Shown here: positions 43,925 through 62,601 of the stretch, piece after piece | Numbering within the stretch: the stretch's first letter is position 1 | How the letters are laid out: the number at the start of each line of letters is the position of its first letter | Assembly: GCF_013466785.1 (NCBI RefSeq) | Contig: NZ_CP059163.1 | Coordinates: 2,604,001-2,668,000, forward strand | DNA: 64,000 nucleotides | Source: Nocardioides marinisabuli | Lineage (GTDB): Bacteria > Actinomycetota > Actinomycetes > Propionibacteriales > Nocardioidaceae | Direction of reading: 5' to 3' | Notes under the pieces: generated by a model | What the model was told of the DNA's origin: nothing | The model's input: the letters and a program-made list of their open reading frames with translations, nothing else | Databases searched by the model: none | Program-made: the position numbers and the translations under genes

Positions 43925-43950
43925 CCCGGCCCCGGTCCCGCGCCGACCGG

Positions 43951-44808
43951 TTACTGCTCGAGCTGGGCGGCCTCCTCCTCGGAGATGATGGAGACGAACC
44001 AGTGGTGGCCCCACTCGGACCCCCGTACCGGGTCGCCGGCCTCGATGCCCTTGCGCGGCACGTCCTTCGGTGCCGGGACGGACCCGACGACGTAGATGTT
44101 CCACTGCTGTCCGAGGTGCTCCTCGGTCGGAGCCAGCGTGAGTGCGGCATCGGGAGCGTGCTCGACCCAGGGCAGCGGGTAGCCCTCCTCCTCGTACCAG
44201 CCGAAGCCGCCGTCCTCGTTGAGGTAGCGGTCGACGCCCTTGGCGAACTGGATGCCGTCCTGCCACTCGCCCTCGTAGGCGACCGAGTAGGTGCGCCCGG
44301 CGACCAGGTAGTCCTTGCCGTCGGCCTCGATCGTCTCCAGCCGCGCCATGTCCGGGTGGGCCACCGGGGTGGGGATCGTGTACTTCTTCGCCTTGCTCGT
44401 GCGCACCAGCTTCTTGCGCTTGTACTCCTTGACGACGAACTTGTAGGTCTCGCCGTACTCGAAGTCGTGGTCGGCCCGGGAGAAGATGGCGGTCCCGTAG
44501 GACTGCGTCGCGGTGGCCTCAGCGCCGCCCTTGATGAACGCCCGGTAGGTGTGGCCTTTCTTCACGCCCGTGAACCGCATGCCCACGACGTACCAGCCCC
44601 AGAGGTAGCCGGCGCCGCCGCACTCGCAGGAGACCCCGGGCGACTTGATCCGCAACGGCTTGGTGCGGGCCCGGTCCTCGGTCGACGACACGGCGGGCGT
44701 GCCGGCCGCTGGTCCGGCGGCCTGGGCCGGGGCCAGGCTGAGGCCGCCGGCGAGCAGGGTCAGGGACGTGGCCACGCCGGCCAGGCGGGTGAGACGTGCG
44801 GGGGACAT
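43951..44808 (-). CDS. Secreted protein of unknown function
   Basis: 285 aa. Sec signal peptide (RLTRLAGVATSLTLLAGGLSLAPAQA-A). The mature part is rich in aromatic and charged residues with a Cys pair close together (SCECGG). Beta-rich passages (KGHTYRAFIKGG, GETYKFVVKEYKRKKLVRT, WNIYVVGSVP) suggest one or two immunoglobulin-like folds. I do not recognise a family. ATG 44808 is preceded by AAGGAG. Divergent from the tad operon over 257 bp. Confidence 0.65.
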   Translation of the reverse strand: MSPARLTRLAGVATSLTLLAGGLSLAPAQAAGPAAGTPAVSSTEDRARTKPLRIKSPGVSCECGGAGYLWGWYVVGMRFTGVKKGHTYRAFIKGGAEATATQSYGTAIFSRADHDFEYGETYKFVVKEYKRKKLVRTSKAKKYTIPTPVAHPDMARLETIEADGKDYLVAGRTYSVAYEGEWQDGIQFAKGVDRYLNEDGGFGWYEEEGYPLPWVEHAPDAALTLAPTEEHLGQQWNIYVVGSVPAPKDVPRKGIEAGDPVRGSEWGHHWFVSIISEEEAAQLEQ

Positions 44809-45009
44809 GCAGGCTCCTTGGGGTCGGGGGAGCCCCATCGTGGTGAGCAGCAGCCGCCGCTGGGGCCGGACCGGGTGATCCCGGACGATTCCGAACAGGC
44901 TGGAGCGCAGGCACGCGCCGGCTCGGCGCGAGATCTGCGCCGGGTCGGCGGGGCGGGAGGTTCTCCACAGGTTAAGGAGTGCCACTTCCCGGGTAGGTAA
45001 AGGACTGCG

Positions 45010-45015
45010 TAGCGT
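45010..45015 (+). promoter_or_regulatory. Possible -10 element of the tad operon
   Basis: TAGCGT lies 51 bp before the cpaF start in the 257-bp divergent gap. The same CGTAGCGTCA string is found at the gntP-like promoter (52123-52132). No good -35 is seen. Confidence 0.4.
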
Positions 45016-45065
45016 CAGCGACGACGCACTCCCACCTCTCGGATCCCTACTCGGAGGGAGCCTCC

Positions 45066-46364
45066 ATGGCGATGACCCACGCCGACGCCCGCCGGGCGTC
45101 GGCTCCCTCCCGGCTGCCCGGTCACTCCGAGACGCTCGAGCAGCTCGACCACGCGCTGCGCGAGGCGGTGCGACGCGAGGGCGTCGACCCCCAGCGCGAC
45201 CCGGGCGTCGTACGCCGCCTGGCTGAGGCGCTGGTGCGGGCGCACGACGACAGGAGCCTGACCGGGGCGGTGGCGCCGGTCGGCGACCTCGAGGCGATGG
45301 TCGACGAGCTGGTCGCGCGGGTCTCGGGCTTCGGGGCGTTGCAGCCGCTGCTGGACGACCCGAGCGTCGAGGAGGTGTGGATCAACGACCCGAGCCGGGT
45401 CTTCGTGGCCCGCAACGGGCGCCACGAGCTGACCAACCTGATGCTCACCCAGGCACAGGTCGCCGAGCTGGTGGAGCGGATGCTCAAGTCCAGCGGGCGG
45501 CGCGTCGACATGAGCCGCCCCTTCGTCGACGCGATGCTGCCCGAGGGACACCGGCTGCACGTGGTCCTCGAGGGGATCAGCCGTGGCTTCTCCGCCGTGA
45601 ACATCCGCAAGTTCGTGCTGCGCGCGGCCCGGCTGGGCGACCTGGTCGAGCTGGGCAGCCTGACCCCGCAGGCCGCGGAGTTCCTGCAGGCCTCGGTGCG
45701 GGCCGGGCTCAACATCCTGGTCTCCGGCGGCACCCAGGCCGGCAAGACGACGATGCTGAACTGCCTGGCGGCCGCGATCCCCGGCAGCGAGCGGGTGATC
45801 TCGGCCGAGGAGGTCTTCGAGCTGCGCTTCCCGCACCCCGACTGGGTGCCGCTGCAGACCCGCCAGGCCGGGTTGGAGGGCACCGGAGAGATCCGGCTGC
45901 GCGACCTGGTCAAGGAGACGCTGCGGATGCGGCCGAGCCGGGTGATCGTGGGGGAGGTGCGGGCCGAGGAGTGCCTCGACCTGGTGCTGGCGCTGAACTC
46001 CGGGCTGCCTGGCATGTGCACCCTGCACGCCAACTCCGCGCGCGAGGCGCTGGTGAAGATGTGCACGCTGCCGCTGCTGGCGGGTGAGAACATCGGCTCG
46101 CGCTTCGTGGTGCCGACCGTCGCCTCGTCGGTCGACCTGGTGGTTCATCTGGGTCTCGACCACCGGGGTCGGCGGCACGTAGAGGAGATCGTGGCGGTGC
46201 CGGGGCGCACCGAGAACGACATCATCGAGGTCGAGCCGATCTTCCGGCGTACCCAGGGCGAGCTGCGCCGCGCGCAGGGGATGCCGCCGCGCACCGAGCT
46301 CTACGAGCGTCACGGCATCGACGTACGCCGCCTGCTCGCGGTGGGCGCGGAGCAGGAGGTCTGA
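45066..46364 (+). CDS. tadA: CpaF/TadA-type pilus assembly ATPase
   Basis: 432 aa secretion ATPase that powers Flp pilus extension. N-terminal domain (about 1-150) then RecA-like core with Walker A GGTQAGKT, Asp box HPDWVPLQTRQ region, Walker B VIVGEVRAEECLDLV and His box LHANSAREAL. Ribosome site TCGGAGGGAG precedes ATG 45066. First gene of a seven-gene operon. The CpaB- and CpaE-like genes that often accompany it lie at the start of the window. Confidence 0.92.
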   Translation: MAMTHADARRASAPSRLPGHSETLEQLDHALREAVRREGVDPQRDPGVVRRLAEALVRAHDDRSLTGAVAPVGDLEAMVDELVARVSGFGALQPLLDDPSVEEVWINDPSRVFVARNGRHELTNLMLTQAQVAELVERMLKSSGRRVDMSRPFVDAMLPEGHRLHVVLEGISRGFSAVNIRKFVLRAARLGDLVELGSLTPQAAEFLQASVRAGLNILVSGGTQAGKTTMLNCLAAAIPGSERVISAEEVFELRFPHPDWVPLQTRQAGLEGTGEIRLRDLVKETLRMRPSRVIVGEVRAEECLDLVLALNSGLPGMCTLHANSAREALVKMCTLPLLAGENIGSRFVVPTVASSVDLVVHLGLDHRGRRHVEEIVAVPGRTENDIIEVEPIFRRTQGELRRAQGMPPRTELYERHGIDVRRLLAVGAEQEV

Positions 46365-46366
46365 GC

Positions 46367-47221
46367 GTGGGCGCGCTGGTGGGTCTCGGGGTGGGGGTCG
46401 GGCTGCTGCTCATCTGGTCGGCCTTCACTATGCCGCGGCGACCTCGCGCGACCTCGACCGGACCGGGGCGGCTGGAACGGCTGCTGGGCTCCGCGGGGCT
46501 GCGGGGCGTGTCCTCGACGTCCTTCGTGCTGATGTGCGCGGTTGCGGGTGTCGGGGCCGCGCTGCTGGTGCAGCTGGTCTCCCGGACCCCGCCGGTCGCG
46601 GTCGTCTTCGGGGTGCTGGCGGCCTACCTGCCAGTGACGGTGGTCGCGGCCCGGGCGCGGCGGCGGCTGCGCGAGTTCGCCGAGGTGTGGCCCGAGGCGG
46701 TCGACAACCTGTCCTCCGCGGTGCGCGCCGGCATGTCGCTGCCCGACGCGCTCTCGGCGCTGGGCACCCGGGGGCCGGAGCCGCTGCGCGAGGCGTTCAC
46801 CGGTTTCGCCCTCGACTACCAGGTCACCGGCCGGTTCGGCGAGAGCCTCGACCGCCTCAAGGACCGCCTGGCCGACCCGGTCGGCGACCGTGTCGTCGAG
46901 GGCCTGCGGGTGGCCCGCGAGGTCGGCGGCGGCGAGCTGGGCCGGCTGCTGCGCAACCTGTCGGGCTACCTGCGCGAGGACGCCCGCACCCGCTCCGAGC
47001 TCGAGTCGCGGCAGGCCTGGACGGTCAACGGGGCCCGCCTCGCGGTCGCGGCGCCGTGGGTGGTGCTGCTGCTGATGTCGTTGCAGAGCGACGTGATCCG
47101 CCGCTACGCCTCACCGGCCGGGGTCGTGGTGCTCGCCGTCGGGGCCGGGCTGTGCGTGCTGGCCTACCGCCTGATGATGCGCATCGGCCGGCTGCCCACC
47201 GAGAGGCGGATCCTGTCGTGA
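46367..47221 (+). CDS. tadB: TadB-like inner-membrane platform protein
   Basis: 284 aa, type II secretion F-domain family. Two N-terminal helices, the F domain EVWPEAVDNLSSAVRAGMSLPDALSALG, and two C-terminal helices. Works as the membrane platform contacted by TadA. GTG 46367 is 2 bp after the TadA stop; overlaps TadC gene by 4 bp. Confidence 0.88.
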   Translation: MGALVGLGVGVGLLLIWSAFTMPRRPRATSTGPGRLERLLGSAGLRGVSSTSFVLMCAVAGVGAALLVQLVSRTPPVAVVFGVLAAYLPVTVVAARARRRLREFAEVWPEAVDNLSSAVRAGMSLPDALSALGTRGPEPLREAFTGFALDYQVTGRFGESLDRLKDRLADPVGDRVVEGLRVAREVGGGELGRLLRNLSGYLREDARTRSELESRQAWTVNGARLAVAAPWVVLLLMSLQSDVIRRYASPAGVVVLAVGAGLCVLAYRLMMRIGRLPTERRILS

Positions 47222-48156
47222 GCCTGACGATGTGGGGTGCCCTGCTGGGGGCCACGACCGCCGCCGGGCTGCTGCTGGTCGCGGCGCGGCTGCGCGTCGT
47301 ACGCCGCCCGCAGCTGGCCGACCGGGTGCTGCCCTACCTGCGGGACCTGCCGCAGGCGGGGCGCCCGGCCGCGGGGCCGAAGCTCGAGGGCGGGTCGTCG
47401 GTGGTGGTCGCCGTCTTCGGACCGGTGCTGCGCTCCCTGGCCCAGAGCGTGGAGCGGGTGCTGGGTGGCGCGACCTCGGTGCGCCGGCGGCTGGCGCGGG
47501 CCGGCATCGACAGGAGCGTGCACGAGTTCCGCGTCGAGCAGGTCCAGTGGGGGCTGGTGGCGTTCTCGCTGGCGGCGGCCTGGGGGCTGCTGCGCACCCT
47601 GGGCGACCCGGGAGCGGTGGTGAGCTCGGCGCTGGTGTGCGCCATCGCCTTCGTGGTCGGTGTGCTCGCCCGCGACAACCACCTCTCGGCCCAGGTCCGC
47701 ACCCGCGAGCGCCGCATCCTCGCCGAGTTCCCGACCGTCGCCGAGCTGCTCGCGCTGGCGGTGGCCGCCGGGGAGAGCCCGGTCGGCGCGCTCGACCGCG
47801 TGGTGAGCCGCTCCGGCGGCGAGCTGTCGGCCGACCTGGCCCGGGTGCTCGCGCAGGTGCGCACCGGTGAGCCGGTCGGCTCCGCCTTCGACACCCTGGC
47901 CGCCACCAGCGGCCTGCCGCTGGTCTCCCGCTTCGCGCAGGGCATCGCCACCGCCGTCGAGCGCGGCACCCCGCTGGCCGACGTGCTGCACGCCCAGGCC
48001 GCCGACGTCCGCGAGGCCGGCCGGCGCGAGCTCATCGAGTCGGCGGCCCGGCGCGAGGTGCTGATGATGGTGCCCGTCGTGTTCCTGGTGCTGCCCGTGA
48101 CCATCATCTTCGCCTTCTGGCCCGGCGTCGTCGGGCTCGACCTGACGACCCCATGA
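47218..48156 (+). CDS. tadC: TadC-like inner-membrane platform protein
   Basis: 312 aa, second F-domain protein: ILAEFPTVAELLALAVAAGESPVGALDRV is the F-domain core, with membrane helices before and after (VLMMVPVVFLVLPVTIIFAFWPGVVGL). GTG overlaps the tadB stop. Pairs with TadB. Confidence 0.88.
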   Translation: MSLTMWGALLGATTAAGLLLVAARLRVVRRPQLADRVLPYLRDLPQAGRPAAGPKLEGGSSVVVAVFGPVLRSLAQSVERVLGGATSVRRRLARAGIDRSVHEFRVEQVQWGLVAFSLAAAWGLLRTLGDPGAVVSSALVCAIAFVVGVLARDNHLSAQVRTRERRILAEFPTVAELLALAVAAGESPVGALDRVVSRSGGELSADLARVLAQVRTGEPVGSAFDTLAATSGLPLVSRFAQGIATAVERGTPLADVLHAQAADVREAGRRELIESAARREVLMMVPVVFLVLPVTIIFAFWPGVVGLDLTTP

Positions 48157-48179
48157 CCCTCTCGGGAAAGGACACCCAC

Positions 48180-48392
48180 ATGACATCCCTCCTCGCGCAC
48201 CGACTGGTGCTGCTCTGGCTCGCCCTGGTGGCACCCGCCCACCGCAGCGGCCCGCGCCGCGACGAGCGCGGCGACGTGCCCGGGTGGGTGCTGGTGACCG
48301 TGATGTCGGCCGGCATCGTGGTCGCGATCGGCTCGATCGCCCAGGACGAGCTGGGGCAGATGCTGCGCAACGCGCTCAACAAGGTGAAGTAG
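48180..48392 (+). CDS. Flp-type pilin precursor
   Basis: 70 aa. Leader with basic residues ends in DERG, followed by a hydrophobic segment (VPGWVLVTVMSAGIVVAIGSI), which is the pattern for class IVb prepilin processing after Gly, then a short C-terminal helix. The Glu at mature position +5 of typical pilins is absent. Ribosome site GGGAAAGGA precedes ATG 48180; an ATG at 48153 is possible but less well placed. Next gene overlaps the stop by one base. Confidence 0.7.
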   Translation: MTSLLAHRLVLLWLALVAPAHRSGPRRDERGDVPGWVLVTVMSAGIVVAIGSIAQDELGQMLRNALNKVK

Positions 48393-48781
48393 TGCCGCTG
48401 CTGCGTCGGCGCAGCTGCCGCGGCGCGGCCATCGTCGACTTCGTCCTGGTGCTGGTCGTGCTCGTGCCGCTGGTGCTGGGCATCCTGCAGGTCTCGTTGG
48501 TGCTGCTGGTGCGCAACACCCTGGCCTCGGCCGCCTCCGAGGGCGCCCGGTACGCCGCCACGGCCGGTCGCGGCGAGGGCGACGGGATCGCGCGCACCCG
48601 CAGTCAGATCGACGGCGCAGTCTCGGGCCGCTTCGCCCAGGACGTCACCGCCCGCACCGTGCTGGTCGACGGCGCACCCACCGTCGTGGTCACCGTGCGG
48701 GCGACCGTGCCCGCGCTGGGCCTGGGAGGCCCGGGGGTGGGCATCGAGGTCGCCGGCCACGCGGTCGAGGAGGAGCAGTGA
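48392..48781 (+). CDS. TadE-like pseudopilin
   Basis: 129 aa. RRRSCRGAAIVDFVLVLVVLVPLVLGILQVSLVLLVRNTLASAASEGARYAAT is the TadE signature: a short basic leader, long N-terminal helix and the ASEGARYA segment. GTG start inside the pilin stop. Minor pilin of the tad system. Confidence 0.85.
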   Translation: MPLLRRRSCRGAAIVDFVLVLVVLVPLVLGILQVSLVLLVRNTLASAASEGARYAATAGRGEGDGIARTRSQIDGAVSGRFAQDVTARTVLVDGAPTVVVTVRATVPALGLGGPGVGIEVAGHAVEEEQ

Positions 48782-49236
48782 GCCGGCGGCCGGTGGGTCG
48801 GCGGTACCGCGACGAGACCGGCAGCGCCCTGGTCGAGCTGGTCTGGCTGGGCGTCCTGCTCCTGGTGCCGATGCTGTGGATCGTCGTCAGCGTCTTCGAG
48901 GTCCAGCGCGGTGCCTTCGGCGTGGAGTCGGCAGCCCGGTCGGCGGCGCGGGCCTACGCCCTGGCCCCCGACGACGCCAGCGGCCACGACCGCGCGAGGG
49001 CAGCGGCCCGGCAGGCGCTGGCCGACCAGGGCCTCGACGACGTCCCCGTCACCGTGGACGTGCGCTGCGGCGAGCTGGCCGACTGCCACTCCGGGACCGC
49101 GGTCATCACGGTGCGTGTCGACTCGAAGGTCGAGCTGCCCTTGATGCCCGACGTGCTCGGCGGGGGAGCACCCAGCTTCGCGCTGGCCTCCAGCCACACC
49201 GTCCCGATCGGGCAGTACCAGGAGATCACCCGATGA
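48778..49236 (+). CDS. TadE/TadF-like pseudopilin
   Basis: 152 aa. DETGSALVELVWLGVLLLVPMLWIVVSVFEVQRGAFGVESAARSAARAYALA has the Glu-containing hydrophobic N-terminal segment of pseudopilins. C-terminal part has a Cys pair (RCGELADC). Overlaps both neighbours by 4 bp. Confidence 0.8.
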   Translation: MSRRPVGRRYRDETGSALVELVWLGVLLLVPMLWIVVSVFEVQRGAFGVESAARSAARAYALAPDDASGHDRARAAARQALADQGLDDVPVTVDVRCGELADCHSGTAVITVRVDSKVELPLMPDVLGGGAPSFALASSHTVPIGQYQEITR

Positions 49237-49691
49237 GGCCCCGACCCACGAGCCGGCGCGACGAGCGGGGCCAGGTCAGCGTGCTGATCGTCGGGTTCGC
49301 CTTCGTGCTCGCGCTGGGGGTGGCGGTGGTGGTCGATGTCAGCGCCGCCTACCTGCAGCGCTCCGGGCTCAGCACCCTGGCCGACGGCGCCGCGCTGTAC
49401 GGCGCCGACGCGGGCGCGACCGGGGCGTCGACGTACACCGAGGGCGTGCCGCAGGACCAGCTCGCCCTCGACGCCGGGGTCGCCCGGGCCGGGGTGGCCG
49501 ACTACCTGCGCAGCGTCGGTGCTCACGAGGAGTACCCCGGTCTGCGGTTCGTGGTCGTCGTCGACCAGGCCCGCTCGTCGGTGCAGGTGCGCCTCAGCGC
49601 CCCGCTCGACCTGCCGCTGAGCATGCCCGGCGCCCCCGAAGCGCCCGCGGTCTCGGCCGAGGGGTCGGCCGTCTCCGACGTCGAGCGGTGA
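49233..49691 (+). CDS. TadG-like pilus-associated protein
   Basis: 152 aa. DERGQVSVLIVGFAFVLALGVAVVVDVSAAYLQRSGLSTLADGAALYGAD matches the putative Flp pilus-assembly TadG N-terminus; it lacks the large von Willebrand domain of longer TadG. End of the tad operon. No prepilin peptidase gene is found in the window. Confidence 0.8.
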   Translation: MRPRPTSRRDERGQVSVLIVGFAFVLALGVAVVVDVSAAYLQRSGLSTLADGAALYGADAGATGASTYTEGVPQDQLALDAGVARAGVADYLRSVGAHEEYPGLRFVVVVDQARSSVQVRLSAPLDLPLSMPGAPEAPAVSAEGSAVSDVER

Positions 49692-49712
49692 GCCCGGCCC
49701 TGGCGGCAGCCG

Positions 49713-50255
49713 TCAGACGAGGGCCTCGCTGCCTTCCTCCAGCCGTCGGAAGTGCTCGATCGGGAGCTCGGCCTCGGCGTACCGAGCCCAGACCAGGACG
49801 TCCCAGTCGGCCTCGGCGGCGGCGAAGGTCCACCCAGGCGGCATGTCCTGTCGACGCAGCCGGTGGTCCTCCTCCACGGTGACGACGGCCATGGGCAGGC
49901 GCAGGAGCCGCAGGAGCACGGTGGTGTCGGTCAGCCGGCCCGACTCCGCGAGCTCGAGCAGGTGCTTGCTCACCACCCGCATCGGCACCACGTGCTCGCC
50001 GGTCGTGCCGACGACGCTGCCGTCCTCCGCCCTGGTCCGCGGCTGGTCCTTGAGCCGCATCGCATCCGGCGACCACCAGGCGCCGGCCGACCGCCTGCGG
50101 TGGCCCTGCTGCGTCTCCCGCGGCTTGGCCCAGATGTAGTCGATGTCGTCACGGATGATCTTGGTCCGGTTCAGGTCGGGGCGCCCCACGAGCAGGTGGA
50201 CCATGCCCAGGATCAGGGCGGCGTCCTGCTCGTCGTCGGGCGTCGGGCGCGTCAC
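49713..50255 (-). CDS. Protein of unknown function with EHVVP motif
   Basis: 180 aa, no signal or membrane segment. GEHVVPMRVVSKHLLELAESG recalls the His-containing core of HNH-like proteins, and the later VVTVEEDHRLRRQDMPPGW and VWARYAEAELPIEHF look conserved in style, but no full HNH triad can be seen. GTG 50255 overlaps the stop of the large membrane protein upstream by 4 bp. The pair interrupts the space between tad and gntP. I do not assign a function; nuclease is one possibility. Confidence 0.6.
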   Translation of the reverse strand: MTRPTPDDEQDAALILGMVHLLVGRPDLNRTKIIRDDIDYIWAKPRETQQGHRRRSAGAWWSPDAMRLKDQPRTRAEDGSVVGTTGEHVVPMRVVSKHLLELAESGRLTDTTVLLRLLRLPMAVVTVEEDHRLRRQDMPPGWTFAAAEADWDVLVWARYAEAELPIEHFRRLEEGSEALV

Positions 50256-52039
50256 GGGACGGAGCCGTCCGCCGTGCCGCGCTTCTCGGCCAGCCCGGTG
50301 ACACCCACGACCAGCAGGCCCAGCAGCAGCAGGCTCAGTCCTTTGACGAAGGCCAGGGCGAGGGTCAGCCACGGGGACTCGGGCCACACCGTCTGGGCCT
50401 GTCCCAGGGAGATCGGGGACAGCACCGTGTCCGTGGCGTACAGCAGCGACCACGCGCCCCTGTCCATGAAGGACTCCCACCACCCGTCGGGAAGCGTGGA
50501 CGGGTTGGCCAACGGTGACTGGACGAACTGGTGGGCGAAGGAGAAGGTCACCACAACGGCGACGACCAGCAGACCCAGCAGCCACCACAGCGCCCGGACG
50601 TTGCTGTAGAAGTAGCGGACGGTGGGCCCCAGCACCAACCGCTCAGCCCACCCCCATGGCTCGTGCCGGGTGCGTGCCTTGGCCCCCAGCACACCGAACT
50701 CCGTCGCGGCACGCGCCCTCCCGGACCGGCGCAACGCCTGCTCGAGCTGGTTCCAGACCTCCTCCGGCAACGAGGCGGACGATGCCGTGAGCCAGTCGTG
50801 GAGGCGACGGGCGGCCGCCGCGTCGGACTTCTTGCCCGGGGTGTCCTCGACGTCGGCGAGACCCACGCTGCCGATCCTGACGGACCTGCTCACCTCGAAC
50901 GGGATGGCGCCCTCGTCCGGCGGGATCCAGAGCTTCCCGAAGCGGGCGCCGTCGATCACCGTCCGGAACGTCGTCGCAGTCGAGGAGGAGGACGCCTCCG
51001 GGTTGGCCGGTGAGAACTCGCCGATCACCGCGTCGGGGATGAACAGCTGTCCGAGGCCTCGACATCCCCAGAAGCGCAGGCTCGACGCGACTTCGATCGA
51101 GGAGGCGTTGAGTGCCCCCCGCTCGCGGTGGAACGCCTGCCCGACGGGGGTGAAGTCGCACGAGTCGAAGGACAGCCACGGCACCACCAGGTGGTTCGCG
51201 CTCACCCAGTGGTGGAAGTCGCAGCCCTCGAAGCCGAGCGGGAAGTCGAGTCGCAACCAGTTCAGGTTGAGCTCTCCGCCGATCACGACCTCACGCAGCC
51301 TCAGACCCTGGGGGTTGGCCACCTGGCCGCTGGCTCCCGTCGCGAAGTCGGCGAGCACGCTGCGCAGGACCTCCGCGTCGATGTACGCCGTGGCGGTGGG
51401 GGTCTCCAGGAAGGCACCGCTGACGTCCTCGTCGCTGCGCACCGGCAACGGGTCCCCGTGCTCGTCGACGGCGTTCACGATGGTGCCCGTGACCAGCGCG
51501 CGGCTGATCTCCTCGGGCGAGACGACCCGCAGCTCGTCGAGGTACTCCTGCAAGGACGAGGCCTTGGTCCGGGCCAGGCGTTGCCCGTACTCCTTGGTCT
51601 CGAGCAGCTGCTGGACGACCGGCACGTGCTGCGGGGCCAGGTGCGAGACGTCCGCGAGGAAGTCGCGGTACCCGGGGGAGCCGAGCAGCGTGGTGAGGTC
51701 GGGCAGGCCCGAGCCGTCTGCCTGCGACCGCTCGGCGACCAGAGTGGTGGCGGGCTTGAAGGACGCCGGCTCGTGGCAGCGTCGCATCAGGTCGACATAG
51801 GTGGGCAGCGAGATGGCGCGCAGCGCCACCAACATGTCCAGGTGCTGCTCAGCAAAGCTCACGAAAGGGTCCTCGGGGCGGTCAGGGGCGCCCTGCTGGC
51901 GTCCGCGTGGGACCACCCAAAGCGCCACGGAACCCTGGAGGAGCGACGTCCGGACATCCCGGACAAGTCCGTACAAGTGGAACCAGGCAGCCTGGGCTTC
52001 CGGAGGCCGATCCCCCCAGCCCGACGGGCGCTTGATCAC
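50252..52039 (-). CDS. Large membrane-anchored protein with pentapeptide-like region
   Basis: 595 aa, GTG start. About residues 235-400 carry irregular repeats (GLRLREVVIGGELNLNWLRLDFPLGFEGCDF, VPWLSFDSCDF, SLRFWGCRGLGQLFI) like the right-handed beta-helix of pentapeptide-type proteins. Similar regions occur in actinobacterial proteins loosely called membrane-associated oxidoreductases. The C-terminus has two or three helices (ALWWLLGLLVVAVVVTF, LALAFVKGLSLLLLGLLVVGV). The N-terminal 230 residues are helical and unassigned. Codon choice is slightly less GC-biased than neighbours, by eye. Operon with the EHVVP protein. Confidence 0.6.
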   Translation of the reverse strand: MIKRPSGWGDRPPEAQAAWFHLYGLVRDVRTSLLQGSVALWVVPRGRQQGAPDRPEDPFVSFAEQHLDMLVALRAISLPTYVDLMRRCHEPASFKPATTLVAERSQADGSGLPDLTTLLGSPGYRDFLADVSHLAPQHVPVVQQLLETKEYGQRLARTKASSLQEYLDELRVVSPEEISRALVTGTIVNAVDEHGDPLPVRSDEDVSGAFLETPTATAYIDAEVLRSVLADFATGASGQVANPQGLRLREVVIGGELNLNWLRLDFPLGFEGCDFHHWVSANHLVVPWLSFDSCDFTPVGQAFHRERGALNASSIEVASSLRFWGCRGLGQLFIPDAVIGEFSPANPEASSSSTATTFRTVIDGARFGKLWIPPDEGAIPFEVSRSVRIGSVGLADVEDTPGKKSDAAAARRLHDWLTASSASLPEEVWNQLEQALRRSGRARAATEFGVLGAKARTRHEPWGWAERLVLGPTVRYFYSNVRALWWLLGLLVVAVVVTFSFAHQFVQSPLANPSTLPDGWWESFMDRGAWSLLYATDTVLSPISLGQAQTVWPESPWLTLALAFVKGLSLLLLGLLVVGVTGLAEKRGTADGSVP

Positions 52040-52124
52040 ACCTGTCTAGTCAGGTCACAACCCACCGGCACTTCTGTGTGAGCCGGGCACATACCTCTCC
52101 GGCCAGAGCGTGCGTAGCGTCACC

Positions 52125-52164
52125 CTGATGCACGAGACCGCCGTCACACCCCGCGACGGCGGTC
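52125..52164 (+). promoter_or_regulatory. gntP-like leader: -10 element and hairpin
   Basis: TAGCGT (52125-52130) is a likely -10. Just after it, GACCGCCGTC (52136-52145) and GACGGCGGTC (52155-52164) form a perfect 10-bp inverted repeat with a 9-nt loop, before the ribosome site GGAAGGA at 52174. It may be an operator or an mRNA leader hairpin. Confidence 0.5.
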
Positions 52165-52189
52165 GCCCTGAACGGAAGGAACCCCGCCC

Positions 52190-53728
52190 ATGATCGGGCT
52201 CTTCGGAATCATCCTGTCGCTGGCCCTGTTGATCTTCTTCGCCTACCGCGGCGTCAACGTGATCATCCTGGCCCCGCTGATGGCGCTCCTCGCCACCGCG
52301 TTCGCGGGCGGGCTGCCCATGCTGGCCACCTACACCCAGGTGTTCATGCCGGCACTGGGCAACTACCTCATCACCTACTTCCCGCTGTTCCTGCTCGGCG
52401 CCCTCTTCGGCAAGCTGATGGACGACAGCGGCTCGGCGCGCGCGATCGCCTACTTCATCGTCGAGAAGCTCGGCGACACGAAGGCGATCCTCGCGATCGT
52501 GCTGGCCTGCGGCATCCTCACGTACGGCGGGGTCTCGCTGTTCGTGGTGGCCTTCGCGGTCTTCCCGATCGCGGCCGCGCTCTTCCGCGAGGCCGGGGTG
52601 CCCAAGCGGCTGATCCCCGCGACCATCGCGCTCGGCTCGTTCACGTTCACGATGACCGCCCTGCCCGGCACCCCGCAGATCCAGAACGCCATCCCGGCCC
52701 CGTTCTTCGGCACCAACGCCTTCGCCGCCCCCGGGCTGGGCATCATCGCCGCCATCATGATGTTCGGCGGCGGCACGGCCTGGCTGATGTACCGCGCCAA
52801 GAAGCTCACCGCCGCCGGCGAGACCTACCTGCCCGCCGAGGCACCCAAGGGTCCCGGTCTGCTGGCCCGCGTCACCGGCAAGGGCACCGACCGCGACGAG
52901 CGGGGCAGCACCTCGACCGGCACCTCGGGCGGCACCGCGACCGGCACCGCCCCCGAGGGTGCCGGCACCGCGACGGCCACCGCCGCGACCGGGGAGCCGG
53001 TCGCCACCGACCAGTCGACCCTGCCGCGACCCAGCGTGCTCGTCGCGTTCCTGCCGATCTTCGTGGTCATCGCGCTCAACTACGTGCTGGTCACCTGGGT
53101 CTTCCCGGCCATGGACACCGACTACCTGGCCGGCGACGCCTACGGCAACACCGACATCGACACCGTCGGCGGCATCTGGGCCATCGTGGTGGCCCTGGTC
53201 GTCTCGACGCTGGTCGTCGTCGCCTTCAACCTCAACCGCTTCGGCGACGTCAAGGAGTCGGTCAACACCGGCACCATGGGCTCCTTCCTGCCGATCTTCA
53301 ACACCGCCAGCGAGGTCGGGTACGGCGCCGTCATCGCCTCGCTGCCCGCCTTCCGCACCGTGCGCGACTCGGTGCTGGGCATCTCCGGCAACCCGGTCAT
53401 CTCGCTGGCCGTCGCGGTCAACGTCCTGGCCGGCATCACCGGCTCGGCCTCGGGCGGCATGAGCATCGCCCTGCAGACGCTGGGCGAGCAGTTCCGCGGG
53501 CTGGCCGACGCCCAGGGCATCAGCCTCGAGCTGATGCACCGCGTCACGGTGCTGGCCGCTGGCGGCTTCGACGCCCTGCCCCACAACGGCGCGGTCGTCA
53601 CGGTCCTGGCCATCTGCGGCCTGACCCACCGCCAGTCCTACAAGGACATCTTCGTGGTGGCCGTGGCGATCCCGGTCGTCGCGCTCGTCACCGTGATCAC
53701 CCTCGGCACGCTCTTCGGCGGCTTCTGA
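52190..53728 (+). CDS. GntP-family permease (gluconate/organic acid type)
   Basis: 512 aa, about 12 membrane helices. GNYLITYFPLFLLGALFGKLMDDSGSARAIAYFIVEKLG and GSFTFTMTALPGTPQIQNAIP are typical of GntP/gluconate:H+ symporters. A Thr/Gly/Ala-rich loop of about 50 residues (around 225-275) interrupts the centre and is probably cytoplasmic linker. ATG 52190 follows GGAAGGA. Substrate likely a sugar acid or hydroxy acid; no catabolic gene is next to it. Confidence 0.85.
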   Translation: MIGLFGIILSLALLIFFAYRGVNVIILAPLMALLATAFAGGLPMLATYTQVFMPALGNYLITYFPLFLLGALFGKLMDDSGSARAIAYFIVEKLGDTKAILAIVLACGILTYGGVSLFVVAFAVFPIAAALFREAGVPKRLIPATIALGSFTFTMTALPGTPQIQNAIPAPFFGTNAFAAPGLGIIAAIMMFGGGTAWLMYRAKKLTAAGETYLPAEAPKGPGLLARVTGKGTDRDERGSTSTGTSGGTATGTAPEGAGTATATAATGEPVATDQSTLPRPSVLVAFLPIFVVIALNYVLVTWVFPAMDTDYLAGDAYGNTDIDTVGGIWAIVVALVVSTLVVVAFNLNRFGDVKESVNTGTMGSFLPIFNTASEVGYGAVIASLPAFRTVRDSVLGISGNPVISLAVAVNVLAGITGSASGGMSIALQTLGEQFRGLADAQGISLELMHRVTVLAAGGFDALPHNGAVVTVLAICGLTHRQSYKDIFVVAVAIPVVALVTVITLGTLFGGF

Positions 53729-53751
53729 GCCACCGAGCGGACGCCGGCACC

Positions 53752-53791
53752 CTCACCGGCACCGGGCTCAGAGCAGCCCGGTGCCGGTGAG
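53752..53791. terminator. Perfect 17-bp stem-loop at convergent gene ends
   Basis: Arms 53752-53768 and 53775-53791 are exact reverse complements with a 6-nt loop. It begins 24 bp past the gntP-like stop and covers the last codons and stop of the convergent acyltransferase gene. Confidence 0.8.
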
Positions 53792-55862
53792 CGCCGTCCA
53801 GATCTGCTCGCGCTGCTCGACGAGGTAGGTCGCGGTCACGTGGGTGGGGTTGAACCACACGACGGTGCCGTCGACGACCGGCAGGCAGACCGGCGCGTCG
53901 GGGCAGATGACCGGGTTGAGGTCGACCACCCCGGCGGACTCGGTGTCGATCGCGGCCGTGTCGTACATCCCGTCGGCCAGCGGACGCCCCAGCGGCACCG
54001 TGACGACGCAGTCGCCCAGCACCCGGGCCCGGGCCAGGCAGTCGAGGGGGTCGAACCCGCCGAGGTCGAACCCGCCGGTGCCGATGATGCTGCGCACCAT
54101 CACGGCGCTGGCGCCGGCGGCCTCCACGAGGTCGACCGTGCGGCGTACGCCGTCGAGCTGCATGCGGGCCAGCGGCAGCTGCTCGCCCTCGCGGGAGCGG
54201 ATCTTGCCCTCCCAGGTCCGGTCGCTGCGGGGCAGGTGCACCAGGACAACGGCGTCGGCGTCCATGCGGGGCAGGGTCTCGGTGTAGAAGTCCTCCCGTG
54301 CTGTCGTGCAGGCCTCCTGCACTGCGGTGGGGTTGCGGGTGTTGAGGAGGCCGTCCTGCCACGGGCACCCCGTCACGATGCTGACCGAGAGCCGCAGGCC
54401 CTTCTCCTCGGCCAGCGCCTCGAAGGCGGGCGTGAGCATCTGGGCGTGGCTGTCGCCGACGAGGACGACGTGCTGACCGGGACCGTCGACCACGAGGCAG
54501 TCCTCGGGGGCGTCGGGGGTGCAGTAGACACCCTCGGGCCCCTTGTCCTCCGCCACCTCGGCGTAGTCGATGGGCGGCACCGGCCGGCCCAGGCGGCGGT
54601 TGGTCAGGGACTCGTCGACCCGGGTGGTGGCGGCCGAGGCGGTCGCGATCGGGGTCCTGTCGCTCCGCAGCAGCGCGGGCGCCACCAGGAGCGCGGCCGC
54701 AAGACTGACGGCCAGGCCACCGGCGACGGTGGGCCACCACCAGCCGTCGAGCGAGCGCGCGCGCCGTACGGGGTGCTCCAGCAGGTGGTAGGACATCGAG
54801 GCCAGGCCCACCGACAGCACCGTCCCGACCGCGGCCGTGAGGGCGGGGCCCACCTCGACCACCCGGCCGACCGCCAGCAGCATCGGCCAGTGCCACAGGT
54901 AGATGCCGTAGGAGATCCGGCCCAGGTAGGTCAGCGTGGGCAGCGACAGCAGCCGGGAGAGCCAGGCGCCCGGGGCGAGGTAGACGCCCACCACCAGGGC
55001 CGCCAGCAGCGGGGTGGCCACCAGGTTGCGGGTGGTGGCGGCCATCGCGAGCAGCTCGGAGGCCACGACCGCGACACCGATGGCCCCGGCGGTGGCCAGC
55101 AGCGCCGCGCCCCGGGCGGTGGTGGCCCTCGTCCGCACCGCGCGCCGCGCGCAGCCGCAGCAGCACGGCGAGCGCCGCACCGGTCATCAGCTGGTAGAGC
55201 CGGGCGTCGGTGGCGTAGTACGCCCACGAGGGGTTGACCTGGGCCCAGACGAGCTGGTTGACGGCCGAGGCGACCACCAGGCCGACCAGCACGCCGAGCA
55301 GCACGACCTCGTTGCGACGGCCCCAGCGCCACCACACCAGCAGCACCAGGGGGAGCAGCACGTAGAACTGCTCCTCCACCGAGAGCGACCAGAAGTGCAG
55401 GAACGGCGACTCCTGCACGTCGCGGGCGAAGTAGTCGGCGCCGTCGAGGATGAACTGCCAGTTGGCGACGTACAGCAGCGCCGAGCGGGCCTGCGAGACG
55501 AGCTCGAGGCGCTCGGGCTTCGAGGCGAGCAGCACGAAGAGGGCGCACGTGCCGAGGACGGTGACGACGGCGGCCGGCAGCAGCCGACGGGCGCGACGCG
55601 CGAAGAACGCCCCCAGCCGCAGCTCGCCGCTGGCGCTCGCGCCGTGCAGCACCACGGTGGTGACCAGGAAGCCGGACAGCACGAAGAAGAGGTCCAGGCC
55701 CAGGAAGCCGTTGGCGAAGCCGGGCAGCTCGGCGTGGAAGAGCAGCACCAGCATCACCGCGACGGTGCGGATGCCGTCGAGCTGCGGGCGGTAGGCGAGC
55801 GGGGCGGCCGTCGGCCGGGGCGCCGGCGCGGACGTCGGCGCCGGGCGGGTCGTGGTCGTCAC
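53768..55862 (-). pseudogene. OatA-like acyltransferase (acyltransferase 3 plus SGNH), frameshifted
   Basis: N-terminal acyltransferase-3 domain of about ten helices (RPQLDGIRTVAVMLVLLFHAELPGFANGFLGLDLFFVLSGFLVT, HFWSLSVEEQFYVLLPL), later helices, then an extracellular SGNH domain with VLVGDSHAQML and a late Asn/His region (NPTHVTA). Such proteins O-acetylate cell-wall or exopolysaccharide sugars. Frame changes near 55138-55155 in a CGCG-rich run; deleting one base gives 697 aa. Start GTG 55862 is preferred because TAAGGT lies 7 nt upstream; GTG 55871 is the alternative. Confidence 0.85.
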
Positions 55863-55869
55863 GGACCGC

Positions 55870-55875
55870 ACCTTA
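55870..55875 (-). promoter_or_regulatory. -10-like hexamer for leaderless acyltransferase
   Basis: Minus-strand TAAGGT ends 7 nt before GTG 55862. It overlaps the alternative upstream GTG, arguing against that start. Confidence 0.45.
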
Positions 55876-55938
55876 ACTTTGCGATCGCACGGACCCGGCC
55901 CCGCACCGCCGCGCCCGACACCACCCGGTCGGTCGCGG

Positions 55939-55944
55939 TAGTTT
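55939..55944 (+). promoter_or_regulatory. -10-like hexamer for leaderless antiporter
   Basis: TAGTTT ends 7 nt before GTG 55952. Confidence 0.45.
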
Positions 55945-55951
55945 CGAGCGC

Positions 55952-57271
55952 GTGACAGCCGACCTCGTCTACCTCGTGGCCGGCGCCAGCCTGCTGCTGG
56001 CCATCGTGCTGCCCAGCGCGCTGGGCCGGCTGCCGCTCACCTCACCGATGGTCCTCGTGGGCCTGGGCATGCTGCTGGGCGCCACCCCGCTGCCCGACGA
56101 CCTGCCGCTGAGCCCGCAGGACAACCGGGCCGCGATCGAGCACATCACCGAGCTCACCGTGCTGATCGCCCTGATGGGCGTCGGCCTGGCGCTCGACCGG
56201 CCCCTCGACCCGCGCCAGAAGGCGTCGCGCCGGGCCTGGTCGCCGACCTGGCGGCTGCTCGGCATCGCCATGCCGCTCTCGATCGCCGGGGTGGCGCTGC
56301 TGGGCTGGTGGGCCGGGCTGGCCCCCGCGGTGGCGATCCTGCTCGGTGCGGTGCTGGCGCCCACCGACCCCGTGCTCGCCTCCGACGTGCAGGTCGGCGG
56401 GCCCGCGACCAGGAAGGTGGTCGGCGAGGAGGCCGACGACTGCGCACCGATCGACGAGGACGACGAGGTCCGCTTCGCGCTGACGGCCGAGGCCGGTCTC
56501 AACGACGGGCTGGCCTTCCCCTTCGTCTACCTCGCGGTCCTCGTCGCCGGCGGCGGCGCGCTCGGCGCCACGGCGCTGGAGTGGGTCGGGTGGTACCTGC
56601 TCGGCAAGACCGCCATCGGGGTGCTCGCCGGCGTCGCGGTGGGCCACGTGCTGGCCCGCTTCGCCTTCCGTGCGGTCAGCCCCACGCTGCGCATCGCCGA
56701 CCGCGGCGAGCCGCTGCTCGCGGTGGCCGCGCTGACGGCGTCGTACGGCGCGGCGGAGGTGCTCGGCGGCTACGGCTTCCTGGCCGTCTTCGCCTGCGCG
56801 ATGACCTTCCGGGCCTCCGAGCGCCGCCACGACTACCACCGCGCGATGCACGAGGTGGTCGAGCGGCTCGAGCGGCTGCTGACCCTCTTCGTGCTGCTGG
56901 TGCTCGGCATCGCCCTGACCCGCGGGCTGCTCGAGGCCCTCGACTGGCGCGGGGTCGCGATCGGTCTGGGCCTGATCCTGGTGGTGCGGCCGCTGGCCGG
57001 CTACCTGGCCCTGAGCGTGCGGCCGGTGCCGCCGGGGGAGCGGGGCGGACTGACCCGGGCCGAGCGGCTCACCGCGGCGTTCTTCGGGGTCCGCGGCGTC
57101 GGCTCGCTGTTCTACCTGGCCTACGCCGCCGGTGAGGTCGACGACTTCGGGCAGAGCTGGCTGTGGTCGACCGTCGGCTTCACGGTCGTGGCCTCGGTGC
57201 TGGTGCACGGCGTGCTGGTCGGCCCGGCGATGGACCTGCTCGAGCGTCGCGAACGGGTGCCGGCGGCCTAG
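55952..57271 (+). CDS. Cation:proton antiporter (CPA1/NhaP-like)
   Basis: 439 aa with about 12 helices. LAPTDPVLASDVQVG and AEAGLNDGLAFPFVYLAVL are hallmark segments: the Asp of AGLNDG is the ion-binding residue of the CPA1 family. FFGVRGVGSLFYLAYA near the end is also conserved. Exchanges Na+ or K+ for H+ for pH or salt balance. GTG 55952 chosen from the TAGTTT box. Stands alone. Confidence 0.9.
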   Translation: MTADLVYLVAGASLLLAIVLPSALGRLPLTSPMVLVGLGMLLGATPLPDDLPLSPQDNRAAIEHITELTVLIALMGVGLALDRPLDPRQKASRRAWSPTWRLLGIAMPLSIAGVALLGWWAGLAPAVAILLGAVLAPTDPVLASDVQVGGPATRKVVGEEADDCAPIDEDDEVRFALTAEAGLNDGLAFPFVYLAVLVAGGGALGATALEWVGWYLLGKTAIGVLAGVAVGHVLARFAFRAVSPTLRIADRGEPLLAVAALTASYGAAEVLGGYGFLAVFACAMTFRASERRHDYHRAMHEVVERLERLLTLFVLLVLGIALTRGLLEALDWRGVAIGLGLILVVRPLAGYLALSVRPVPPGERGGLTRAERLTAAFFGVRGVGSLFYLAYAAGEVDDFGQSWLWSTVGFTVVASVLVHGVLVGPAMDLLERRERVPAA

Positions 57272-57291
57272 CAGCCCGTACCCTCCCGGGT

Positions 57292-57744
57292 ATGCGATCC
57301 CCCCTCGCCGCCCTGCTCGTCGTGCTCCTGACCGTCGTCGGAGGCGTCGCCGCCCCCACCACCGCCCACGCCGCCGGCGCGGCTGCGTACGAGAAGTCGG
57401 TGCACAAGAAGACCAACGTGCAGCGCACCAAGCGCGACCTGGTGGGGCTGCGCAAGCAGAGGTGCGTGCAGCGCTTCGCCGACCGGCAGGCCCGCCGGAT
57501 GGCGGACCAGGAGCGGATGTTCCACCAGGACCTCGGTCCGGTGCTGGAGAAGTGCGACCTGAGCCGGGTCGCCGAGAACGTCGCCTACGGCTACTCCAGC
57601 GGCAAGGCCGTGGTGAAGGGCTGGATGGGGTCCCCGGGCCACCGCGCCAACATCCTCGACGGCCGCTTCCGGCTGCTGGGTGTCGGTGCCAGCAAGAGCG
57701 ACGACGGCACCTGGTACGCCGCCCAGGTCTTCGGCCGCAAGTAG
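57292..57744 (+). CDS. Secreted CAP (SCP-like) domain protein
   Basis: 150 aa. Signal peptide to about residue 28 (VVGGVAAPTTAHA-A), then one CAP domain with conserved HQDLGPVLEKCDLSRVAENVAYG and [12 protein letters not shown], the two central motifs of the family. Bacterial CAP proteins are extracellular and mostly uncharacterised. ATG 57292 has TACCCT 7 nt upstream. From residue 32 onwards the DNA is 368/370 identical to the 3' end of the next gene, a recent duplication. Confidence 0.88.
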   Translation: MRSPLAALLVVLLTVVGGVAAPTTAHAAGAAAYEKSVHKKTNVQRTKRDLVGLRKQRCVQRFADRQARRMADQERMFHQDLGPVLEKCDLSRVAENVAYGYSSGKAVVKGWMGSPGHRANILDGRFRLLGVGASKSDDGTWYAAQVFGRK

Positions 57745-57754
57745 GAACCGCCCG
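57385..57754 (+). repeat. 370-bp segmental duplication, copy 1
   Basis: Matches 58897-59266 with two substitutions, one giving Arg to Lys and one Asp to Asn. Identity runs through the stop codon into AGGAACCGCCC, then ends sharply on both sides. Confidence 0.92.
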
Positions 57755-57825
57755 ACGGGGCCTCTTCTTCACCCGAGATGCTCGAATCGCGAGACACAGC
57801 CGCTCGCCTGGTCCACTCTCCTCAC

Positions 57826-59256
<1,431 letters not shown>

Positions 59257-59276
59257 GAACCGCCCTGGGAGGTGCG

Positions 59277-60406: not shown

Positions 60407-60837
60407 TGGTCGGCTGGGACGACGTGCGACGTCGTCTCGAGTGCCGTCTCCGGGAGCTGCCCGAGGGTGGTTTCGTCGTGCTCGGCGAGGCTCCACGCGT
60501 CCTGGGGCGCCGGGCGTGGTGGCGTCGACAGGCGCCGACGGCGCCCACCAGGTACGTGCAGGCGCGCCGCGACGGGGCGCACGTGTACGTCGAGTGCGTC
60601 GGGGCTCGTTCCTTCGGCGGCGGCTGGGAGATCGACGACACCGCCCACACGCGGCTGCGGCGGCTGGGCTGGTTGGTGCCCGGCGAGATGGACGCGACGG
60701 GGGTGCAGCCCTCGTGGCCGAGCTACTGGCGGGTCCTGCCGGTCTCCGAGTCCGCGGCGGCGGCACGGCTGTGTGTCGCTGCACTGGACGTCCTCGGGGC
60801 CTCGCCCGACGCGGTGGACCTCCAAGCCGGACCCTGA
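60406..60837 (+). CDS. Small protein, TY-Chap-like candidate
   Basis: 143 aa, no signal peptide. RYVQARRDGAHVYVECVGARSFGGGWEIDDTAHTRLRRLGWLVPGEM...SYWRVLP follows the pattern of TY-Chap/YbjN-like domains, proposed chaperones of type VII secretion; this is a pattern judgement. ATG overlaps the prfB stop. Its last 115 bp overlap the convergent operon. Confidence 0.55.
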   Translation: MVGWDDVRRRLECRLRELPEGGFVVLGEAPRVLGRRAWWRRQAPTAPTRYVQARRDGAHVYVECVGARSFGGGWEIDDTAHTRLRRLGWLVPGEMDATGVQPSWPSYWRVLPVSESAAAARLCVAALDVLGASPDAVDLQAGP

Positions 60838-61430
60838 GCCCGCGGCTCGGAGCCCCCGGGCGAGCGCGGGAGCGGGTCGGCAGACGGCAGCAGCGTCGAG
60901 AACACCCGGTAGAGCGAGGTCGCATCGACCGGGCGGAGCAGGTCGGCGCCAGGATCTGCCAGGAAGGGGCCGTGCGCTCCGTCGACCGCCACGACCTCGA
61001 CCCGTCGGCCGGGTGAGGACACCTCCAGCCGCCAGGCGCGCGAGGCGCCGGCCAGCTCGAGGGCGTCGGCGCGGACCGCCGGGTCGGTGGACAGGAGCCG
61101 ATCGAGCTCCCTCGCCGGGTAGACGCGTTCTACGCGCGGGCCACGACGTGCGACACCCGGGCGCGTCAGGCGGACCAGCGAGACGGCCAGGTGCGAGGGC
61201 GGGAGCATCATCACCTGGTGCAGTCCCGGCTGCACGGCGAGCACGACCGCCATCCGGTCGGGGGCCGCCCAGGCGCGGTGCCGCAGGAGGGTCGGCCCGG
61301 CCACCACCAGGTCCACCGCGACCGCGTGCTCACGCGCCACCTCGGCGACCGGGTGGCCGGAGAGCAGGAGCGCGGCGAGACCCTGGTCGTCGACGCGCTG
61401 CCCCTGGGCGGCAGTGGACGGATCAGACAT
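60723..61430 (-). CDS. Protein of unknown function, possible EspG-like
   Basis: 235 aa, soluble. Alternating strands and helices (LAALLLSGHPVAEVAREHAVAVDLVV, MAVVLAVQPGLHQVMMLPPSHLAVSLVRLT, ATSLYRVFSTLLPS) loosely recall EspG-type chaperones, but I cannot be sure. The last 40 residues are Ser/Ala/Arg-rich and run antisense to the gene at 60406-60837, so the true end may be shorter if an indel is present. ATG 61430 overlaps the upstream gene. Confidence 0.5.
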   Translation of the reverse strand: MSDPSTAAQGQRVDDQGLAALLLSGHPVAEVAREHAVAVDLVVAGPTLLRHRAWAAPDRMAVVLAVQPGLHQVMMLPPSHLAVSLVRLTRPGVARRGPRVERVYPARELDRLLSTDPAVRADALELAGASRAWRLEVSSPGRRVEVVAVDGAHGPFLADPGADLLRPVDATSLYRVFSTLLPSADPLPRSPGGSEPRAQGPAWRSTASGEAPRTSSAATHSRAAAADSETGRTRQ

Positions 61431-61926
61431 CGGCGCTGTTCCTCCGGCGGCCGCTGACCGGTCGCCACGCCGCAGCGACGTCTGCGCAGCAGTCGGCGAG
61501 GGCGTCGTAGGACCAGGTCTCGAACGTCGCGGTCAGCGACCAGGCGTGCCGATCGTCCTCGCGCACGAACCACTGCTCCATGGTCAGGGCCCGCCCCTCG
61601 AGGTCGACGTGGTGCGCCAGCCGTCGCCCGCCCGGCAGGTCGTCGATGCGCAGCCGTTCGATCTCGATGAGGTGGTAGTCACGCAGGGTCCGGGGCAGGA
61701 GCTGGGCGGTGCCCACCTGCCAGTCGCGGAAGCTGAGCCCGTGCAGGTCGTCGCAGGTCAGCACGAGGTTGGCGCGAAAAGACCCCCGCTCGGCCGGCCC
61801 GCCCGCTCCGGCCGGGTCACCGGCCTGCACCGCGGCCCAGAGCGCGCCCACCGGCGCCAGCGCCAGCTTGTCCCACCCCGGTGGCACCTCCGGGGCGGCG
61901 TACGACGGGGGAGCGGGGTCAGTCAC
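61423..61926 (-). CDS. LpqN/Mog1-fold-like protein
   Basis: 167 aa, no signal peptide. GSFRANLVLTCDDLHGLSFRDWQVGTAQLL...YHLIEIERLRIDDLPGGRRLAHHVDLEGRALTMEQWFVREDDRHAWSLTATFE...WRPV matches the strand order of LpqN/PsbP/DUF1795 proteins found with type VII secretion genes. GTG 61926 overlaps the membrane-protein stop; the next start overlaps its stop. Confidence 0.6.
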   Translation of the reverse strand: MTDPAPPSYAAPEVPPGWDKLALAPVGALWAAVQAGDPAGAGGPAERGSFRANLVLTCDDLHGLSFRDWQVGTAQLLPRTLRDYHLIEIERLRIDDLPGGRRLAHHVDLEGRALTMEQWFVREDDRHAWSLTATFETWSYDALADCCADVAAAWRPVSGRRRNSADV

Positions 61927-62272
61927 GCGACCGGCCGTCCGGCGACGTGGGCCGGTCGCGGTACCACCGCGGCTGGACCGCGGAGGGCACGGGCAGCGGA
62001 AGCGCGGCGAAGCCCACCCAGGCCACGAGGACGAGTCCCAGCAGCAGCGCCACCGGTGTGGTCGGGCCGCCCGCGCGCTGCAGCCCCCCGAGGGCGGCGC
62101 CCAGCAGGAGGGCGGCGGCGAGCAGCGGCCACAGGATCAGCACGTTGCGCTGGGCGAAGTCTCGGTGGGTGCCGTGGGCCCATCGTCGAGCGGCGCTCGA
62201 ACGACCGCGTCGCTGCCAGGTGTTGAACCCGGCCGCAGCCGTGCCGCTGAGCAGCATGAAGAGGTAGATCAC
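61919..62272 (-). CDS. Small membrane protein
   Basis: 117 aa with three hydrophobic segments ([59 protein letters not shown]). The stretch [29 protein letters not shown] is very basic and cytoplasmic. GTG 62272 lies 2 bp after a TGA that ends the shifted frame of the upstream gene, supporting the repaired reading of that gene. No known family. Confidence 0.6.
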
Positions 62273-62274
62273 GA

Positions 62275-62572
62275 TCAGTCCCAGAAGGTCAGGGCGTCAC
62301 CGACGTCGTCCAGGCCCTCGCCGACGTCGGGGAGACGGTCACCGGTCCGCGATGTCGCGGACCTCGTCCGCCACCGCAGCCACCGCCTGGGCCAGCGCGC
62401 CCAGCGCCGTGGCCAGCTCGTCCGACGAGGCCCCGGCGTCGGGTCGTCCGTCGAGGTCCGGAGCCACCGACGCCAGCGACCCCGCCGTCGAGTCGAGGAG
62501 GCGTGCGGCGGTGCGCAGGTCCGCCGGCTCCACGTGGAGACGCCCCGGCGTGCGGCTCGCGGAGGTGGTCAC
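62275..62572 (-). pseudogene. Short helical WXG100/ESX-like protein, probable frameshift
   Basis: GTG 62572 (GACGAT 6 nt upstream) opens 77 codons: [27 protein letters not shown] ... [26 protein letters not shown], two amphipathic helices like ESX/WXG proteins, without a clear WxG turn. The frame stops at 62339, but removing one base near 62341-62346 continues [22 protein letters not shown] and ends 2 bp before the next gene. I therefore suggest a 98-aa protein interrupted by one indel; the 77-aa form is the alternative. Confidence 0.5.
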
Positions 62573-62601
62573 GAGGCGATCGTCCCACCTGGGCGGGTGG
62601 G

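Follow-up and report, generated by a model that had tools for sequence, protein, structure and literature searches.

A probably horizontally gained two-gene block encoding a beta-helix membrane protein and an EHxxP-motif protein in Nocardioides marinisabuli, putatively a small conflict module

A described counterpart of the smaller of the two proteins considered here is the HNH nuclease domain GmrSD_C (DUF1524) of type IV restriction enzymes, which carries an EHxxP-type motif (PMC12707154 and PMC4619093). The review PMC12707154 places DUF1524 in the His-Me family and names EHxxP as a nuclease motif of this domain, and PMC4619093 gives the active site of GmrD as a predicted E/D-H-N-N. The larger protein has its counterpart in a family found, among others, on Streptomyces plasmids, in which a coil (beta-helix) domain precedes a C-terminal pair of transmembrane helices, the loop being of the Y-x-L-D-x-x-L-P type. 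In sequence records, its members carry labels such as 'membrane-associated oxidoreductase', 'oxidoreductase' or 'hypothetical protein', and the first of these labels occurs as a table row in PMC6302529. No Pfam oxidoreductase domain was found in the five relatives scanned, and a literature search returned no description of the function of this beta-helix family or of a pair such as the one reported below.

The analysed stretch of Nocardioides marinisabuli DNA (64,000 nucleotides; hereafter, the window) contains one protein of each kind, P0002 (large) and P0001 (small), encoded side by side (Table 1). The P0002 gene precedes the P0001 gene, both start with GTG, and they overlap by 4 bases. A first-pass annotation had described an overlapping two-gene unit of 595 and 180 aa, with C-terminal helices in the large protein and an EHVVP core in the small one, standing alone between unrelated loci, and each of these points was borne out. 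Both frames are intact and have a coding-type, position-specific G+C content; P0002 has hydrophobic segments around residues 477-510 and 555-588 (hydropathy peaks in windows 477-492 and 555-570, both segments aligned with relatives in alignment A5); the EHVVP motif is present; and the pair is flanked, as classified with Pfam, by Tad/type II secretion-type (pilus) genes and, at its other end, by a divergently oriented GntP-type permease gene, with no defence genes among the window neighbours. The slightly different codon use also ascribed to the pair holds for P0002 (CAI 0.59, below the lowest of the 20 reference ORFs of the window, 0.615-0.87), but not for P0001, whose value of 0.731 falls within this range and is not unusual.

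Table 1. Positions of the features of the P0001/P0002 locus (window coordinates; G013 is the closest relative compared).
Feature	Position	Strand	Basis or remark
Segment absent from G013	49693..52021		blastn and pairwise alignment of junctions; ends uncertain by ~20 bases
P0001, 180-aa EHVVP protein	49713..50255	-	ORF and translation; match to profile of relatives
EHVVP motif, P0001 residues 87-91	49983..49997	-	sequence; EH and P invariant in 4 family members
GTGA overlap, P0002 stop / P0001 start	50252..50255	-	sequence
P0002, 595-aa beta-helix and two-transmembrane protein	50252..52039	-	ORF and translation; family profile match
P0002 residues 477-585, two predicted transmembrane helices and loop	50285..50611	-	hydropathy; profile match residues 407-586
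P0002 residues 185-400, short beta-helix-like region	50840..51487	-	alignment A5; profile match residues 185-340
P0002 residues 1-165, aligned to no relative	51545..52039	-	alignment A5; profile match starts at residue 185
Near-perfect palindrome ACCTGTCTAGTCAGGT	52040..52055		abuts P0002 start codon, upstream of divergent GntP-type gene

A comparison with G013, in which the neighbouring Tad protein matched best when 15 genomes were searched with it, revealed that window regions 44959-49692 (88% DNA identity) and 52022-53734 (90%) are collinear in G013, where they end and resume at adjacent positions (9001 and 9003 of the G013 stretch compared). The segment missing between them measures 2,329 bp and contains the P0001/P0002 pair and no other gene, so the pair, which had been described as set apart from its neighbours, is indeed absent as one block from the closest relative. 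The 120-base ends of the insert that were tested have no common 8-mer, direct or inverted. Among 58 relatives, the P0002 gene was found in one, the window's own genome, and P0001 had three matches. Besides that in its own genome, there was a distant match in G022, and a third in G017 (E 8.7e-4) was rejected as due to chance, since it runs opposite to a long reading frame that probably encodes a transpeptidase. Given this distribution, a gain in the lineage of the window is likelier than a loss in G013, and the pair was most likely acquired as one block. The palindrome next to the P0002 start looks like a repressor site; it is partly retained in G013 and therefore probably predates the insertion.

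The insertion lies in a region of variable length. The distance from the Tad cluster to prfB is ~9.6 kb in the window and ~3.6 kb in G013; among 13 other relatives, prfB begins 0.24-5.4 kb past the last Tad gene in 9 and was not found within the ~5 kb examined past Tad in 4. Five segments between 39.8 and 64 kb of the window are longer than in G013 (43925-44958, 49693-52021, 53735-55920, 57754-58888 and 60408-62610), which indicates that gain and loss are frequent here. The interval from the last Tad gene to prfB (49691-59270) differs among relatives in both length and content, and looks like a spot for accessory genes.

By profile comparison, P0002 is a member of the known, functionally undescribed beta-helix family, with a new N-terminal part. 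It matched a profile of 10 relatives, built without P0002 itself, with an E-value of 2.1e-34 (Z = 1e5; 121.4 bits), and the controls (500 shuffles and one reversal) reached at most 5.8 bits. The match consists of two blocks, residues 185-340 and 407-586, corresponding to the entry region and the C-terminal helical/transmembrane part of the actinobacterial and alphaproteobacterial relatives. P0002 stands apart from these in its additional ~165 residues at the N-terminus, a smaller number of coils and the presence of a partner gene. Positively charged residues flanking the helices suggest that its N-terminal and coil parts are on the cytoplasmic side of the membrane. The pentapeptide-like repeats noted in the first-pass annotation found no direct counterpart in Pfam, as P0002 has no Pentapeptide match at E <= 1 and does not reach the gathering score of Pentapeptide_3; it does match the profile of its relatives, and of the 5 relatives scanned, 3 match Pentapeptide_3 (E <= 0.002), including two above the cut-off. 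A PB1 domain, the sole Pfam match of P0002, was discarded (E 0.087, under the Pfam cut-off).

A search with the single P0002 sequence gave only faint relatives, with matches at E <= 1 in 19 of 245 genomes, of which four were kept (the window's own, G167, G268 and G234). The other 15 were dropped, as the family profile scores none of their loci at E 1e-3 or better, and three frames examined among these resemble antisense frames of high G+C. The members in G167, G268 and G234 led to the family on 34 plasmid records, chiefly of Streptomyces and Rhodococcus, with some alphaproteobacteria and one cyanobacterium; P0002 used as a direct query against plasmids had no match. Within the genus, at least 6 of 147 genomes carry a family member (E <= 1e-10 with a profile including P0002), a lower bound in that part of the first-look candidates was scored in many genomes. 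Scans of genome contigs of close relatives with P0002 and alignment A2 yielded no confirmed relative. On a Roseomonas plasmid (L069, 4812-6502), the record shows two overlapping genes in place of a single gene of this family, whose parts are in two frames.

The family of P0001, defined here by its EHxxP motif, is rare by the counts below, and no name for it was found in Pfam, NCBIfam, PHROGs or PADLOC. Three relatives were identified, WP_111232089.1 (plasmid pS16 of Curtobacterium sp. MCSS17_016) and one protein each in G433 and G791; all belong to the same small family nearly over their full length. A profile built from these three without P0001 matched residues 6-176 of P0001 with an E-value of 1.3e-9 (Z = 1e5) and 40.7 bits, whereas controls did not exceed 7.0 bits. 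Among the positions invariant in the four members are one W, the EH and P of EHxxP, a V, a T and a W-x-R-Y motif. The relatives differ from P0001 in sequence, with only 24-29% identity, and in having no beta-helix gene in their examined flanks. At least 2 of 394 genomes in one search (the window's own and G433) and at least 2 of 396 in another (the window's own and G791) carry a member, and none was found in kin of G791 or G433, all these counts being lower bounds because only part of the first-look candidates was scored. Six of the 394 genomes had matched, and four of these matches were dropped (E 0.003-0.01, partial model, internal stop), as was a match in G280 among the kin genomes after scoring with the family profile. 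A 353-aa protein of G022 (locus L002) reached E 6.6e-5 with P0001 and E 6.8e-6 when scored with the profile from which P0001 was excluded, and it is possibly a further, distant member.

The suggestion that P0001 may be a nuclease was sustained in one respect and not in another. EHVVP fits the EHxxP signature of His-Me proteins (as described in a section of PMC12707154), so the first His-Me motif is present. On the other hand, no Asn or His after EHxxP is conserved in the four members, and hence the pattern of an HNH active site is not found; the nearest candidate residue is in a column 42 positions after the Glu of EHxxP, which is always acidic. The lack of a conserved Asn after the motif also separates this family from GmrSD_C, with which only 9 columns around the motif could be aligned by hhalign (probability 0.9%). 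The score was 17.4, compared with a maximum of 16.1 among 30 column-permuted controls, but this hit is favoured by the fact that the 24 target domains had been cut around such a motif beforehand. P0001 matches no Pfam family at E <= 1, and hence not GmrSD_C either, and single-sequence structure models, with mean pLDDT of 34.0 (P0001) and 42.7, were too poor to read a fold. P0001 may thus be a His-Me protein of an unusual or decayed form, or it may not be a nuclease at all.

The first-pass annotation had also treated the two genes as belonging together and as resembling defence or competition systems. At the family level, they were found apart, an outcome that the annotation itself had named as refuting its reading: none of the 17 other beta-helix loci (L024, L026, L027, L060-L071, L106 and L107) has an EHxxP-family gene in the examined DNA, and none of the three other EHxxP loci (L030, L094 and L095, the last only 3.5 kb long) has a beta-helix gene, so that the pairing was seen once, at the window locus. 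The resemblance to defence systems was not upheld by the databases, as neither P0001 nor P0002 is covered above chance by any family of PADLOC, NCBIfam, Pfam or PHROGs; PADLOC-DB 2.0.0 gave no family for either protein even at E <= 10, and none for nine relatives at E <= 0.05 (the sole match, to AbiEii, had an E-value of 0.055). In viral contigs, scans with A1, A2, P0002 and A4 found no relative, and a DNA pattern for EHV-PRK hit six stretches, none with a family member. P0001 had no match in phage records at E <= 1, nor had a relative (L038) at E <= 0.01.

On the Rhodococcus plasmid pLP337 (L060, 2638-4566), a relative of P0002 lies between AbiEi/AbiEii and SIR2 and ThiF genes, which is a defence-like neighbourhood, and another beta-helix relative is near a GIY-YIG nuclease gene. 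Most annotated contexts examined, however, are not defence islands but unremarkable surroundings on chromosomes or plasmids, e.g. with transporters and hydrolases (the record of L063 has no annotation). Beside the EHxxP gene of G433 (L094, 2392-3942), there are open frames that, by eye, we take to resemble restriction-type nuclease-fold proteins.

Tentatively, and with less than even confidence, we propose that the pair was gained horizontally, is coupled in translation and would act as a small conflict (defence-like) module. P0002, anchored in the membrane with its N-terminal and beta-helix parts in the cytoplasm, would hold or sense something through its coil surface, and soluble P0001 would be the effector, whose target may be nucleic acid and whose metal site may be EHxxP. 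That the genes overlap and were inserted together points to a shared role of the two proteins. The conflict-module reading is further supported by the empty site in G013, the confinement of the P0002 gene to one of 58 genomes, the sporadic occurrence of the EHxxP family, the variable Tad-prfB site, the His-Me signature and the relatives near AbiEi/AbiEii/SIR2/ThiF or GIY-YIG genes. It is weakened by the pairing being absent from all 17 and all 3 other loci, by the negative PADLOC, viral-contig and phage-record searches, by the lack of a conserved Asn/His after EHxxP and by the non-defence neighbours in the window. A role in defence is possible for the pair, but the narrower version, in which it would be an undescribed two-component defence module with a membrane-tethered beta-helix sensor, a new N-terminal domain and a coupled EHxxP effector whose acidic residue replaces the HNH Asn/His, appears distinctly unlikely.

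Two rare genes may simply have arrived together and persisted in a variable spot as accessory cargo without a common function, as would agree with the separate occurrence of the two families, the frequent gain and loss around the locus and the different codon use of the two genes; we consider this somewhat unlikely, given that the genes overlap by 4 bases, are the sole content of a single insertion and have both kept intact frames with coding-type codon-position G+C. A comparably low probability is assigned to an envelope or stress-sensing pair, in which P0002 would serve the cytoplasmic membrane as scaffold or sensor, and P0001 would be a partner or regulator that is not a nuclease. Here the ordinary genes (transporters, hydrolases) in most annotated family contexts, the lack of conserved HNH residues past EHxxP, and the divergent permease gene and palindrome at the P0002 start would find a place, but the sparse distribution is unsuited to a housekeeping role, and the palindrome, being partly kept in G013 where the pair is missing, need not regulate the pair. 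Less probable still is a toxin-immunity or toxin-antitoxin pair, in which P0001 would be a toxic nuclease-like protein that P0002 neutralises or holds. A small and a large gene overlapping in a mobile spot and the nuclease-like motif of P0001 would suit such a pair, yet P0001 has no secretion marker recognised by Pfam or NCBIfam, its relatives at three loci are without a beta-helix partner, and the P0002 gene comes first and encodes 595 aa. A first-placed gene product of that size is an unusual antitoxin.

If the pair protects against phage, this would reveal a function for the scattered family of beta-helix membrane proteins, whose only current name is the unsupported label 'oxidoreductase', and the effectors would be joined by a rare family that has a nuclease-type motif. 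If it does not, the locus is still a clean two-gene block beside a pilus cluster, present in one genome and missing from a close relative at the same site.

Several further differences were observed in the surroundings of the block. The acyltransferase-3 and SGNH gene at 53697-55871 is split over two frames. One frame has the beginning of Acyl_transf_3, and the other has the remainder together with the SGNH domain (53768-55180), so that the gene is either broken or misread; the segment 53735-55920 is missing from G013. The 2.2-kb segment at 60408-62610, likewise missing in G013, contains small open frames. Two neighbouring CAP-domain genes occupy 57286-59250, and the part at 57754-58888 is additional compared with G013, as would result from gain or loss of one copy between similar genes.
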